A stretch of 64,000 nucleotides of DNA from the NCBI RefSeq assembly GCF_009882935.1, contig NZ_WTVA01000001.1, positions 1-64,000 of the forward strand. Reading direction: 5' to 3'. The DNA is from Sneathiella chungangensis. Lineage in GTDB: Bacteria > Pseudomonadota > Alphaproteobacteria > Sneathiellales > Sneathiellaceae. Positions 47,211-51,582 of this stretch are shown in pieces (the first letter of the stretch is position 1; each line of letters starts with the position of its first letter). Position numbers and translations under genes: made by a program. Below the pieces are notes generated by a model that was not told the origin of the DNA, did not search any database, and saw nothing but the letters and a program-made list of their open reading frames with translations.

Positions 47211-48785
47211 CTACCAGACGCCGAAATAGATTCCGCGCTTCTTGGCCGTATCGGTCCGCTCCTCGATGACGTCATGAGCCATTGTCGTGCGATTGCGCCG
47301 ATGGCGGAGCCAGTGGTTGAGCGTTTCCTCCATCTCATTGCGGATTTCCGCATGCAATTCGCTCGTGCCGAGATCGATCAGCTCATTCGGGTCTTTCTCA
47401 AGATCGAACAATTGCGGGCGGAACTGATCATAGGAGATATATTTCCACCGCTCCGTGCGGATCATATAGGCGCGGGTCTGATCGGGCGGCAGCTTCAGCG
47501 CGAGGCGGGCGCCGCGCCAGGCGTAATCGGCCTCGCTCACCGCAAAGTCCCGCCAGCCAGCCGGATTTTCTCCCCGCAACAGCGGCAGGAGGGACTTTCC
47601 TTCCAGAACATGCGGCTTGGCCTCCCCACCCAGGGCGTCCACGAAGGTCGGGATCAGGTCGATCGCCTCAGTCAGCGCATGAATGCGGCCGCCGCGCGTT
47701 GCGTCGCAGTCGCGGCTCGGATCGACAATAATCATCGGGATGCGGACGCTTTCCTCATGGAACATCTCCTTCTCGCCGAGCCAGTGATCGCCGAGATAAT
47801 CGCCATGATCGCTGGTGAACACGATAAGGGTATCGTCAAGCCGGCCCTGTTCCTCGAGGAAGGCCATCAGCCGGCCGATATGGTCATCAATCTCCGTGAT
47901 CAGGCCCATATAGGCCGGGATCACATGGCGGCGCTTTTCCTCGTCGGAGAAATTGACGCTTTCCTCATGGCCCATGAAGGCTTTGATCACCGGATGTGGA
48001 TCGGCTTTCTCCTTTTCCCCGCGATTGGCGGCGATCACGTCCTGCGGCGAATACATATTGTGATAGGGCGCGGGCGCGATATAGGGCCAATGCGGCTTGA
48101 TATAGCTGAGATGCAGACACCAGGGCGTGTCGCCAAGCTCCGCGATCTTGTCCATGGCGCGGTTGGTCATATAGGCGGTTTCCGAATGCGCCTTGTCGAT
48201 CCGGGCGGCGAGATGGGCGTTGCGCAGGTACCAACCGCTCGCCACCTCGCCCTTTTCGTCGATGCCGGAATTGGCGAAGCTGTGCCAGGGATTGTCGCCC
48301 TCATAGCCCTGCTCGCGCAGATAGTCATTATAGGCGAGATTGGGATCGACGAAGGCGTCCGGATGCAGGCCGTCATCGCGCTCCCACGGTTCGAACCCGC
48401 ATTCGGCGGCGAGGACGCCCTGAATGCTGCCCTTATCGATACCGAGCCGCTTCATTCCCGCAAGATCGGCCTGCATATGGGTCTTGCCGATGAGGCCGGT
48501 GGAAACGCCGAGCTCGCGCATATGATCGCCGACGGTCCGCTCACCGATTTTGAGCGGCACATTATTATAGGTCGCGCCATGCGACTGCACGTAACGCCCG
48601 GTGTAGAAGGACATCCGCGACGAGCCGCAGACCGGCGCCTGACAGAAGGCGTTGGTGAAGATCACGCCGCGCGCCGCCAGTGCGTCGATATTCGGCGTCT
48701 TGAGCGTCGGGTGACCGGTGCAGGCGAGGTAATCGGCGCGCAGCTGGTCGCACATGATGAAGAGGATGTTTTTTACGCGACTCAT
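47211..48785 (-). CDS. Sulfatase-like hydrolase, formylglycine-type with variant CGSSR core
   Basis: A 524-residue alkaline-phosphatase-superfamily enzyme. The metal-binding start is NILFIMCDQLRADYL, the nucleophile region is PVCGSSRMSFYTGRY with Cys53, and FTSDHGDYLGDHWL provides the second metal set. Sulfatases and phosphonate monoester hydrolases use CxPxR or CxAxR, recognised by the formylglycine-generating enzyme; here the third position is Ser. It has no signal peptide, so it acts in the cytoplasm. Substrate could be a sulfate ester or a phosphonate/phosphodiester. Confidence 0.88.
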   Translation of the reverse strand: MSRVKNILFIMCDQLRADYLACTGHPTLKTPNIDALAARGVIFTNAFCQAPVCGSSRMSFYTGRYVQSHGATYNNVPLKIGERTVGDHMRELGVSTGLIGKTHMQADLAGMKRLGIDKGSIQGVLAAECGFEPWERDDGLHPDAFVDPNLAYNDYLREQGYEGDNPWHSFANSGIDEKGEVASGWYLRNAHLAARIDKAHSETAYMTNRAMDKIAELGDTPWCLHLSYIKPHWPYIAPAPYHNMYSPQDVIAANRGEKEKADPHPVIKAFMGHEESVNFSDEEKRRHVIPAYMGLITEIDDHIGRLMAFLEEQGRLDDTLIVFTSDHGDYLGDHWLGEKEMFHEESVRIPMIIVDPSRDCDATRGGRIHALTEAIDLIPTFVDALGGEAKPHVLEGKSLLPLLRGENPAGWRDFAVSEADYAWRGARLALKLPPDQTRAYMIRTERWKYISYDQFRPQLFDLEKDPNELIDLGTSELHAEIRNEMEETLNHWLRHRRNRTTMAHDVIEERTDTAKKRGIYFGVW

Positions 48786-48825: not shown

Positions 48826-49212
48826 CTAGAGCAGCGGATCGTCTAGCCGGTTCACAAAGAAGGAGATATATCCCTTGATGTCCAGCATCTCGCGGAACGG
48901 TTCCTCATAGGACCAGGCGATATTCTTCTCGGTGCCGAAGGTCCAGTAGCTGGCGATTCCCTTGTACGGGCAATAGGTGTCCTTGTCGGTCATATGCGCC
49001 TGCTTGAGCTGGACATCGGCGGGCGGGAAATAGACGACGGGCGGATAATTCCCCTCCCGCAGGACGATCGCCTGGTGGCTGCGGGCGATCTCGACACCCT
49101 CAAGCGTCGCGACAAACTCGCGATCGGGCTTTTCAAGGATAATCTGGTACTCGGGATTTTTGGCGAAACCGGGGGCGGCCTCGATCCCGGCCGTCTGTGA
49201 TTCTGTTTCCAT
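48826..49212 (-). CDS. DUF427 protein
   Basis: A 128-residue protein of the DUF427 family. Hallmarks are NPEYQIILEKPDREFVATLEGV near residue 20, YPPVVYFPPADV, and the core TYCPYKGIASYWTF (~76) with AWSYEEPF near 97. The family is a small beta barrel of unknown biochemical role. There are three consecutive ATGs; the third (49212) is best spaced from AAGGGAG. It precedes the sulfatase-like gene by ~40 bp and may be in its operon. Confidence 0.85.
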   Translation of the reverse strand: METESQTAGIEAAPGFAKNPEYQIILEKPDREFVATLEGVEIARSHQAIVLREGNYPPVVYFPPADVQLKQAHMTDKDTYCPYKGIASYWTFGTEKNIAWSYEEPFREMLDIKGYISFFVNRLDDPLL

Positions 49213-49277
49213 CATCATCTCCCTTTTCCGTAAAGTTCGGGATGGGTGTCCAGTATGACCACGCGCGGGCCTCGAGT

Positions 49278-49973
49278 TCAAGCAGCTTTTTTTACCATTG
49301 GACCGGCGAGGTCATGGGGTGCCGCTAGGGTCATTTTTTCGGCCGTGAAAGGGTGAATGAATTCAAGGCGTTCCGCGTGAAGTTGCAGGCGGGCCGCGCG
49401 CCGCCGGTTTTCCGCGTCCGCATAAAAACGATCGCCAAGGATCGGATGGCCGATGGCGGCGCAATGCAGGCGAAGCTGATGGGTACGCCCGGTCTCGGGG
49501 TTGAGCGCGAGCAGGCTGGCATTGTCGCGCCGGTCGAGAACCCGCCAGCGGGTGAGGGCGGGCTTGCCGTTTTCCAAATCGATCTTCTGAAGCGGCCGGT
49601 TCGGCCAGTCGACCATCAGCGGCAGATCGATCTCGCCGTCCTCTTCCAAAGGCCCGCCCGCGACCCAGGCGAGATAACGTTTTTCGACGGCCCGCCGCTG
49701 AAAGAGGAGGCTGAGCTGCCGGTGCGCCGCCGCGCCCTTGCCAAAGAGCAGCAGGCCGGAGGTATCCATATCGAGCCGGTGGACCGTGCGGGCGTTGCGG
49801 TCATGGGCCTTCGCCCGCGCCTCCGCGCAGTCCTGAAGATGCGCCTCGCGTCCCGGCACCGACAGCAGCCCACTCGGCTTGTTGACGGCGATCAGGAACT
49901 CATCTTCGAAAAGGATATCGCGCGGGCGGGGCGCGGGCGGGTCGTAGGCGAGATCTGCCGGGCGATCAAGCAT
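49278..49973 (-). CDS. RluA-family pseudouridine synthase
   Basis: A 231-residue RNA-modifying enzyme of the RluA type. The catalytic Asp is in the motif TVHRLDMDTSGLLLF (~64-78). LLSVPGRE near 36 and RTHQLRLHCAAIGHPILGD near 163 are family-typical. It lacks an S4 domain, as in RluA, which modifies 23S rRNA and some tRNAs. It overlaps the sugE stop by 8 bp, so expression may follow the guanidine-II riboswitch of the upstream exporter gene. Confidence 0.88.
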   Translation of the reverse strand: MLDRPADLAYDPPAPRPRDILFEDEFLIAVNKPSGLLSVPGREAHLQDCAEARAKAHDRNARTVHRLDMDTSGLLLFGKGAAAHRQLSLLFQRRAVEKRYLAWVAGGPLEEDGEIDLPLMVDWPNRPLQKIDLENGKPALTRWRVLDRRDNASLLALNPETGRTHQLRLHCAAIGHPILGDRFYADAENRRRAARLQLHAERLEFIHPFTAEKMTLAAPHDLAGPMVKKAA

Positions 49974-50286
49974 CGCTCGAGAGTTTCATCAGCACGAGGC
50001 CGGAGACGATCAGTGCTGCCGCGCCTAAGCGCATCGGGTTCGCCGCCTCGCCAAGGATCATGATGCCGACAAGAAACGCCCCGACGGCGCCGATGCCGGT
50101 CCAGACCGTATAGGCGGTGCCGAGCGGCAGGGAGCGCATGGCGAGTGCCAGCAGCGCGAAACTCGCGATCATGGTGACGAGGGTGACGATGGACGGGGTG
50201 AGGCGGGAGAAGCCCTCGGATTGCTTCATGGAATAAGCCCAGATCACTTCGAGGATCCCGGCGGCGACAACATAAATCCAGGCCAT
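49966..50286 (-). CDS. sugE: SMR-family guanidinium exporter (Gdx/SugE type)
   Basis: A 106-residue four-helix SMR protein that exchanges guanidinium for protons as an antiparallel homodimer. The coupling Glu is in GILEVIWAYSMKQSEGFS, and the Gdx-type run FSRLTPSIVTLVTMIAS, GTAYTVWTGIGAVGAFLVG and ANPMRLGAAALIVSG distinguish it from EmrE-type multidrug pumps. A guanidine-II riboswitch precedes it, giving independent support. GGAG lies 8 bp before the ATG. The stop overlaps the pseudouridine synthase start. Confidence 0.95.
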   Translation of the reverse strand: MAWIYVVAAGILEVIWAYSMKQSEGFSRLTPSIVTLVTMIASFALLALAMRSLPLGTAYTVWTGIGAVGAFLVGIMILGEAANPMRLGAAALIVSGLVLMKLSSDA

Positions 50287-50305
50287 TTCATGGCTCCTTC
50301 AAATG

Positions 50306-50349
50306 GCCGGGTCGTCCCGGAAATCACACTCATGAGAGGGTCGTCCCTT
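50306..50349 (-). promoter_or_regulatory. Guanidine-II riboswitch (mini-ykkC)
   Basis: Reading on the minus strand there are two hairpins with the ACGA loop: first AGGG-ACGA-CCCT (50348-50337), second CCGGG-ACGA-CCCGG (50320-50307), separated by about 16 bases. Two short G+C-rich stems with ACGR tetraloops define guanidine-II riboswitches, and the next gene is a SugE/Gdx exporter whose ribosome-binding site follows by about 8 bases. Ligand binding would keep that site accessible, raising export. Confidence 0.93.
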
Positions 50350-50357
50350 TCCCCGCC

Positions 50358-50386
50358 TAGATAATATATGCGGTGCGCCGGTGCAA
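50358..50386 (-). promoter_or_regulatory. Promoter of the guanidine-II riboswitch transcript
   Basis: On the minus strand -35 TTGCAC (50386-50381) and -10 TATCTA (50363-50358) are separated by 17 bp. Transcription should start near 50351, within two bases of the first riboswitch stem. This fits a short leader made for the riboswitch alone. Confidence 0.7.
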
Positions 50387-50405: not shown

Positions 50406-51089
50406 TCAGCCGCGCTCCAGCATCACCGCATTGACCTTCGTGCGCGTGCGGAAACCGAGATTCTCATAGACGCGGATGGCGCGGGTATTGGTGGCGAACA
50501 CCTGCAAATAGGGCTGCTCCCCGCGCGCCATGATCTGCTCCGCCACCTTCACGCAGAGCGCATGGGCGAGGCCGCGGCCGAGGTAATCGGGATGGGTGCA
50601 GACGCCGCTTATCTCGCTATAGCCCGGATGCTTGAACCGTTCTCCCGCCATGGCGATGAGCTTGCCGTCCTCCTTCACGCCCCAGAAATCGCCAAGAAGG
50701 CGGGTATCGCGAAGATACGGTCCGGGCTTGGTCAGCGTCGCGAGATTGAGCATATCTTCCGCGTCCGCCTCGGTCAGCCGTATAATTTCAGGCGCGCTCC
50801 TTGCCAGGGCTTTCAGATTTTCCAGCACCATCTGGCAGCCTTCCGCGGCTTTGGCGGCGCGGACCCCGTCCGGCAGGACCACCGGCGCCACCTGGATCAG
50901 GAAGAGATTCCCGTCCTCCGGCATCAGGCGGGCGAGCGCGGCGAGGCTGTCCGCGCTCTCATCCCGGACGCCCGCGAAGATACTGACGTTTGGCGTGAAG
51001 CGGCGGGCGCCGCCGTCGCCGATGGCGAAGGGGCCATGCGCCGTGGTGAGCGAGTTCCAGATCGGCCGATCGAGAATATGGTCATTCAT
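50406..51089 (-). CDS. GNAT-family N-acetyltransferase (FR47-like)
   Basis: A 227-residue cytoplasmic acyltransferase. The C-terminal GNAT domain (~120-225) has the acetyl-CoA motif A region CTHPDYLGRGLAHALCVKV and motif B NTRAIRVYENLGFRTR. The N-terminal half (~1-110) is less conserved. I chose the ATG at 51089 since AAGGAGGG lies 8 bp ahead and the upstream open frame is an alternate-frame copy of the MarR gene. It overlaps the MarR gene end by 8 bp. Substrate unknown. Confidence 0.85.
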   Translation of the reverse strand: MNDHILDRPIWNSLTTAHGPFAIGDGGARRFTPNVSIFAGVRDESADSLAALARLMPEDGNLFLIQVAPVVLPDGVRAAKAAEGCQMVLENLKALARSAPEIIRLTEADAEDMLNLATLTKPGPYLRDTRLLGDFWGVKEDGKLIAMAGERFKHPGYSEISGVCTHPDYLGRGLAHALCVKVAEQIMARGEQPYLQVFATNTRAIRVYENLGFRTRTKVNAVMLERG

Positions 51090-51582
51090 TGGTATTGCCC
51101 TCCTTCGTTTCCATGACACGGCTATAGAGCGATTTTTCCTGCAGGCGGGTCTCGAGCGCGTCGAGCTGATCGAGGAGCGGGCCGTCCGTGTCGGCGCAGA
51201 TATCGGCAAGATGCGTCTCGATCAGCGGCCAGATGGTTTGGCGTCCGTCGGCGACCAAAGTGCGGCCTTTCTCCGTTAGCTCGACACGTCTTTTCCGTTG
51301 ATCGCGCGATCCACGCCGGACGGTGACGACACCCTGTTTGGCGAGCTGGCCGACGCTGCGCGTGACGCCGGGCTGACTGACACCGAGCGCGGCGGCGAGA
51401 TCGCCGATGGTCATCGGGCCCATCTCGTCGAGCGCGGCGAGAAGAGGATATTGCCCCGTCTGCACCGCGAGTCCCGCCGCGTCTATCAATTGCTGGACAT
51501 CCGCCTGAAGCCGGTCCCCGATGCGCTTGAACCGGGTGCCGAGAGTGAGATAGCCCTTGCCGCGAACAAAATCCTCAACCAT
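51082..51582 (-). CDS. MarR-family transcriptional regulator
   Basis: A 166-residue dimeric winged-helix protein. The recognition region MTIGDLAAALGVSQPGVTRSVGQL is near residues 57-80, and the wing is VRRGSRDQRKRRVELTEKG. I chose the ATG at 51582 because the extended frame begins with TTG and GGGAAAGG lies ahead of the ATG. It is co-translated with the GNAT acetyltransferase gene and most likely regulates that operon. Ligand unknown. Confidence 0.88.
   Translation of the reverse strand: MVEDFVRGKGYLTLGTRFKRIGDRLQADVQQLIDAAGLAVQTGQYPLLAALDEMGPMTIGDLAAALGVSQPGVTRSVGQLAKQGVVTVRRGSRDQRKRRVELTEKGRTLVADGRQTIWPLIETHLADICADTDGPLLDQLDALETRLQEKSLYSRVMETKEGNTNE

Follow-up and report, generated by a model that had tools for sequence, protein, structure and literature searches.

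The stretch analysed here (the window, 64,000 nt of the Sneathiella chungangensis genome) probably carries an ordinary guanidine-II ON riboswitch that, together with its own promoter, drives the exporter gene sugE, with a modelled hairpin at the start codon as the most likely switch, and any effect on the pseudouridine synthase gene rluA behind sugE would be a by-product of position. New here is a well-supported guanidine-II/gdx unit in Sneathiella; the riboswitch class and its exporter target were already known.

Search of the whole window with cmscan against all 4,227 Rfam families identified the guanidine-II (mini-ykkC) aptamer RF01068 on the minus strand at 50352..50307, with 34.9 bits against a gathering cut-off of 32 (E 0.0028) and coverage of the full model (1-48). 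The aptamer (50307..50352) has the order P1-linker-P2 with ACGA in both loops; the 5-bp stem of P2 is fully paired, that of P1 has 4 bp with an A-C mismatch beneath, and the sugE start codon lies 20 nt past the aptamer end. In line with the class, each of the two hairpins carries an ACGR loop and the gene immediately behind them encodes an SMR exporter; the weak P1 with its A-C mismatch departs from the class. Nine guanidine-II matches were found in the 3.8-Mb genome (15 contigs), and only the window aptamer exceeded the cut-off (E 4e-5); no second riboswitch was recognized in this genome, the eight other RF01068 matches all staying under the cut-off at 22.9 bits or less. A preliminary description had placed a complete guanidine-II riboswitch with its promoter at 50306-50386, with two ACGA-loop hairpins between promoter and sugE, and had named a covariance-model search as the check. 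The search bore out the riboswitch, both loops were as described, and aptamer plus promoter agree with that stretch to within one base.

The score stands just 2.9 bits above the cut-off in a GC-rich genome, as might be expected if the aptamer were a pair of GC hairpins arisen by chance. This origin is nevertheless extremely improbable, given that the aptamer lies directly upstream of sugE, that the promoter spacing is conserved, and that both ACGA loops are invariant among six aligned Sneathiella copies in which the P1 stem and linker differ. The seventh copy in the genus, the first of the two in genome G001, has ACGG as its P2 loop. The element is, judged from sequence, a guanidine-II riboswitch with the usual exporter target behind it.

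The promoter assignment rests on a −35-like box, TTGCAC (50381..50386, minus strand), and a −10-like box, TATCTA (50358..50363, minus strand). The pattern TTGC-N19-TATCTA, which was derived from the site itself, has a single match in the 64 kb, where shuffled sequence would give 0.05. Five of the seven Sneathiella aptamer copies (G000, G002, G013, G021 and the first G001 copy) agree in the box, in its 17-nt spacer and in the 13 nt that separate the box from the first ACGA loop, and among them the 5′ part of the spacer varies; the pattern was not matched at G017 or at the second G001 copy. A generic sigma-70 scan did not list TTGCAC-17-TATCTA because TATCTA fails its −10 rule; it listed a single site in the region (51643, elsewhere) against 0.8 expected, and conservation of the boxes among relatives was used in its place. 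TTGCAC-17-TATCTA (50386..50358) is a credible promoter, and the spacing would put the transcription start about 7 nt past the −10 box, inside the 5′ strand of P1. Both the promoter ahead of sugE and the start at the first stem had been proposed beforehand; the promoter holds up on this comparison, and the start agrees with the spacing.

The gene behind the aptamer, sugE/gdx (49966..50286, minus strand), encodes a protein of 106 aa of the SMR family. The product scored 132.1 bits with NCBIfam NF008512 (cut-off 126) and matched Pfam PF00893, and its best solved chains were 8vxu and 6wk5, both named as SMR family and ranked ahead of EmrE; 6wk5 we take to be Gdx-Clo. Residues E13, W16, S42, Y59 and W62 are all present, with N at position 42 in the SugE of G013. 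For Gdx-Clo, PMC9574504 describes roles of E13, W16, S42 and W62. The window protein resembles the Gdx/SugE exporters in its NF008512 score, these five residues and its closest chains, and no notable difference from them was seen. It is thus predicted to be a Gdx-type guanidinium exporter, in line with the earlier naming of SugE/Gdx as the riboswitch target.

Guanidine-II riboswitches are described as acting on translation (PMC7544219 and PMC9561414), and several platforms have been put forward: an anti-Shine-Dalgarno (anti-SD) sequence in the linker between P1 and P2 for Escherichia coli sugE (PMC9300104, PMC9094411), a P0 helix formed by the flanks in Pseudomonas aeruginosa (PMC9561414), and, in Gloeobacter violaceus, a stem that overlaps both P2 and the ribosome site (PMC5486947). 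The platform proposed for the window (50281..50308, minus strand), based on folds, shuffles and the leaders of relatives, would place the 3′ flank of P2 on the start codon and is closer to the overlapping stem of Gloeobacter violaceus than to the E. coli linker model. In this leader GGCCAUUU (50308..50301) can pair with AAAUGGCC (50288..50281), which contains the sugE start codon; the GG of GGCCAUUU doubles as the end of P2, and the SD sequence GAAGGAG lies in the loop of the start-codon hairpin. Transcription would begin at or just before P1, as the conserved spacing suggests. In the modelled state without guanidine, pairing of the P2 3′ flank with AAAUGGCC would keep ribosomes off the sugE start. 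Guanidinium, whose binding here is predicted from the literature on the class, would lock the loops of P1 and P2 together, which would secure P2, reclaim the shared GG and weaken the start-codon hairpin, so that sugE would be translated and guanidinium exported.

Mononucleotide shuffles of the leader stretch that runs from P2 to the SD sequence lowered start-codon sequestration in the window (p 0.010), in G021 (p 0.027) and in G001b (p 0.027). The effect was weak in G013 (p 0.073) and G002 (p 0.116), and G017 showed none relative to its shuffles (p 0.734). Among the 46 loci that could be tested, 9 had p<0.05 and 34 had p<0.5; the leaders of 3 of the 49 loci were too short, one hairpin was recognized alone in three, and the loci are related, so that these counts are not independent trials. 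In G013 the start-codon helix is kept with an altered inner pair, AUUG/CAAU for AUUU/AAAU. When P1 and P2 were enforced, the probability of an unpaired AUG rose from 0.00 to 0.10 in the window, from 0.01 to 0.45 in G021, from 0.03 to 0.82 in G013 and from 0.41 to 0.62 in G001b; the AUG was not freed in G002 (0.18 to 0.16) or G017 (0.00 in both states). Accessibility of the SD sequence fell under the same constraint, from 0.92 to 0.40 in the window, and was lower also in G002, G021 and G013. Leaders with P1 and P2 enforced did not stand out from their shuffles (23 of 43 with p<0.5). The stability of the whole leader did not exceed that of shuffles (z −0.52) and was discarded as evidence of structure. 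The competition between P2 and the start-codon hairpin is the most likely of the switch models tested, with modelled evidence that is modest, mixed and partly contrary. The published alternative, pairing of the P1-P2 linker with the SD sequence as proposed for E. coli sugE in the two reports cited above, is unlikely here: with P1 and P2 enforced, linker shuffles altered SD accessibility at chance level in the window (p 0.71), and over all loci 22 of 46 had p<0.5 and one of 46 (G001b) p<0.05. With no excess over shuffles, the linker anti-SD was rejected as the switch.

The preferred unit, in which promoter, aptamer and start-codon hairpin serve sugE, stands in a row of genes on the minus strand. 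Upstream are a gene for a MarR-type regulator (51082..51582) and a GNAT acetyltransferase gene (50406..51089), the latter also adjacent in relatives, whether or not they have the riboswitch. Downstream follow rluA (49278..49973), whose longest ORF has 231 aa, a DUF427 gene (48826..49218; PF04248) and a sulfatase or PehA-like esterase gene (47211..48785; PF00884), which reached 329 bits with NF045661, below its cut-off of 900. The rluA product scored 194 bits with the RluA-family model TIGR00005 (cut-off 192.7), and its best-scoring model was PRK10158 RluA. A phmmer comparison matched it to RluA 2i82 over residues 10-221 (5.3e-59), including the motif HRLDMDTSG; the HRLDxxTSG motif has a catalytic role in RluA enzymes. 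The aligned residues and the motif are shared with 2i82, whereas the PRK10158 score of 215 bits stays below the equivalog cut-off of 286, and its place after a riboswitch-sugE unit, seen in a single clade, is a further difference. The gene is likely an RluA orthologue, of the tRNA Ψ32/23S rRNA Ψ746 type by model name. The pseudouridine synthase domain PF00849 occurs over cut-off at five places in the genome.

The longest rluA ORF starts at 49973 and overlaps the sugE stop by 8 bp. The overlap reported in the preliminary description is therefore correct for that ORF, but the true start may differ: the distance from the sugE stop to the mechanically chosen rluA start is −8 nt in G000 and G013 and +4 nt in G002, G017 and G021. 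No promoter-like site was listed inside sugE by the consensus scan, which also missed the conserved riboswitch promoter. Two terminator-like sites on the minus strand, at 50093..50081 in sugE and 49935..49919 in rluA, are at chance level, since shuffling gives 2.1 ± 1.6 sites of this kind and the whole region holds 4. Co-transcription of sugE and rluA is likely, because the genes share a strand, their frames overlap or nearly abut in five genomes and no promoter was listed in sugE; translational coupling is possible, the frames being close. A shared transcript would be insufficient for guanidine control of rluA, because the riboswitch class acts on translation, and rluA would thus sense guanidine only through coupling to sugE or through polarity. 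Guanidine may raise RluA in this way, rluA lying behind the unit on the same strand and probably on the same transcript; such a rise would be a by-product of position and not a conserved guanidine response.

Within Sneathiella, the aptamer exceeded the cut-off in 6 of 24 genomes, the window's own included. Intact sugE and then rluA follow it in five (G000, G002, G013, G017 and G021), and sugE is degraded in G001; in G015 a contig edge falls inside sugE just upstream of rluA. An RluA-family match was present in all 24 genomes and reached at least 175 bits in 22, the two lower ones being G005 and G012 (66% and 70% complete). G007 and G019 have GNAT, rluA, DUF427 and sulfatase genes in the same order as the window; neither a SugE match nor a canonical ACGR hairpin was found there. 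These two genomes form one branch, with support of 97/95 in the RluA tree and 100/99 in the tree of four joined neighbours. The branch lies inside the sugE-bearing clade in both: the forks concerned have 94/81 and 92/85 in the RluA tree, just short of the tool's star, and its exact place is not fixed in the joined tree. Loss of the unit in G007 and G019 is the simplest reading, because the branch sits inside that clade. In the SugE tree, which has 106 columns and 114 rows and is mostly without resolution, the G013 protein was not joined with the other four Sneathiella SugEs; the riboswitch-sugE unit may not have been inherited once.

In G007 and G019 rluA directly follows GNAT after a gap of about 65-85 nt, and a common TTATGCTATTGA box in these gaps (L036:1424-1489 and L039:357-443) is a candidate rluA promoter. 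G001 holds two aptamers on one contig (L105 / L048:493-1480); none of sugE stands behind the first, and the second is followed by a degraded sugE remnant of 30 codons and then by rluA. The contig with both aptamers measures 6.3 kb in a 220-contig draft, and the arrangement may reflect decay or an assembly effect. The same site can thus be compared in three states, carrying the unit, carrying a decayed form of it (G001) and lacking it (G007, G019), a small natural experiment in a setting that can tell regulated targets from bystanders among the downstream genes on a riboswitch transcript. The comparison suggests that rluA exists independently of the promoter-riboswitch-sugE unit and is a bystander.

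Beyond the genus, guanidine-II matched at E ≤0.001 in 41 of 386 genomes of the class (37 over the cut-off), at 44 places, of which the four under the cut-off (in G115, G089, G046 and G125) were kept in the counts. The 44 places together with G017, G021, G013 and G024 gave 48 loci for the first gene; the first- and second-gene counts exclude the two G001 copies and the matches under the cut-off in G039, G057, G040 and G000. The first genes comprised 30 SMR, 11 DUF1989 and 5 PACE (PF05232) genes, one gene for an ACT-domain protein and one for a CBU_0592-type membrane protein. The second gene was chosen mechanically as the longest ORF starting within 300 nt, so that the 46 probably include several ORFs that are no genes, and two of the 48 loci gave no second ORF of 60 aa. 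Five of these 46 second genes encode pseudouridine synthases, and all five are from Sneathiella; this count holds, whereas the other second ORFs carry little information. Among the best 80 listed SugE loci of named genomes, a listing that may miss records near the window's own genome, RluA was found within the 8-kb locus once, at the Sneathiella one. On both counts, no linkage of rluA to the riboswitch unit was found beyond one lineage, and RluA was rejected as a general gene of the guanidine regulon. In two genomes of one genus (L066, L069), guanidine-II and sugE are followed by a DUF455 gene at a 4-nt gap or overlap, which looks passenger-like. At L077:1576-1983 guanidine-II stands upstream of the ACT-domain protein gene, which a further ORF overlaps by 4 nt.

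With rluA apparently a long-established neighbour in a few related species, the link between riboswitch and rluA looks incidental, because it was seen only in Sneathiella and because G007 and G019 keep rluA without riboswitch or sugE. The suggestion that the riboswitch also controls the pseudouridine synthase gene is accordingly supported as far as a likely shared transcript; the further idea that RNA modification is tied to guanidine status is not supported, since rluA is present with or without sugE and the adjacency was seen only in this genus. A functional part for RluA could be imagined, since guanidinium is a chaotrope that loosens RNA, and a Ψ32/Ψ746 enzyme co-induced with the exporter would stabilize it. 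The shared strand, the close spacing of the two frames (−8 or +4 nt) in five genomes, the sixth genome G015 with its contig edge inside sugE just before rluA, and the persistence of rluA behind the riboswitch in G001 despite the degraded sugE would all fit. Such a role is very unlikely all the same: the adjacency was seen only in Sneathiella (5 of 46 second genes, one of the best 80 SugE loci), two species retain rluA without the unit, the two copies on a 6.3-kb contig of the 220-contig G001 draft are perhaps an assembly effect, and no paper joining guanidine, riboswitch, sugE and pseudouridine synthase was found in the literature searched. Very unlikely too is that, in this Sneathiella clade, guanidine does increase RluA by way of the sugE transcript and the additional Ψ32 in tRNA and Ψ746 in 23S rRNA makes cells more tolerant of RNA-loosening guanidinium.

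A less remote alternative, possible although we consider it doubtful, is that expression of rluA does not depend on the riboswitch and comes from marR-GNAT read-through or from an unrecognized promoter in sugE. All six genes from marR to the sulfatase gene lie on one strand, and rluA can do without the unit in G007 and G019, where it comes directly after GNAT with the TTATGCTATTGA box between them. The overlapping or nearly abutting frames favour coupling instead, and no promoter-like site was listed in sugE, although the scan also missed the conserved promoter. Guanidine-driven expression of sugE with rluA as a positional by-product is the reading retained.

Guanidine-II can nonetheless recruit genes outside its textbook regulon, because it was found before a second ATP-synthase a-subunit gene and before PACE genes, and these two settings may outweigh the main finding. 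In Hyphomicrobiales, guanidine-II lies just upstream of a second gene for ATP-synthase subunit a near sugE (L117:3078-3886, L151:3087-3895, L112:2991-3908, L118:2992-3901, L152:3094-3906, L183:3089-, L142:4393-5239, L143:4368- and L153:4420-). In L112, L142 and L152 the cmscan score of the element exceeded the cut-off, and in the others it was recognized by motif only; a motif test missed the riboswitch before the L196 copy, which is the Kaistia locus that cmscan detected in L152. The four riboswitch-linked proteins scanned scored 350-367 bits with NF004482 (cut-off 225), and exactly two subunit-a matches were present in each of the six genomes searched. No other ATP-synthase subunit gene was recognized by eye among ORFs of at least 70 aa at seven loci, a length at which a small subunit could escape. 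The linked copies read RLFAV or RLFSV in five of six genomes, and the six other copies RLFAN or RLFGN; five of the six thus have valine in place of asparagine four positions past the conserved arginine, which is presumably the stator arginine, and the Bosea copy keeps RLFAN. Near Rhizobium setariae a second subunit-a gene is rare, being present in 1 of 61 genomes, R. setariae itself. The linked protein is possibly a guanidine-tolerant spare subunit, and no paper with both ‘guanidine riboswitch’ and ‘ATP synthase subunit’ was found in the literature searched.

In five further genomes (L014, L082, L084, L091 and L095), one of them in the window's own family, a PACE (chlorhexidine-type) efflux gene stands immediately behind a guanidine-II element that exceeds the cut-off; no paper joining ‘PACE transporter’, guanidine and riboswitch was found in the literature searched. 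Among the best 80 listed SugE loci, 30 passed the strict two-hairpin motif, and many, though not all, of the other 50 resemble leaders with a normal P2 and an enlarged P1 loop, GAGG-A-ACGA-CCUC or GAGG-CC-ACGU/ACGA-CCUC. Such leaders occur at L106, L119, L121, L125, L174, L176, L180, L182 and others, for example in Stenotrophomonas, Afipia, Mesorhizobium and Sphingopyxis. In a permissive scan of eight, four were not listed at E 5 and four scored 22.9-25.0 bits against the cut-off of 32; these leaders possibly represent a riboswitch variant or a gap in the Rfam model.
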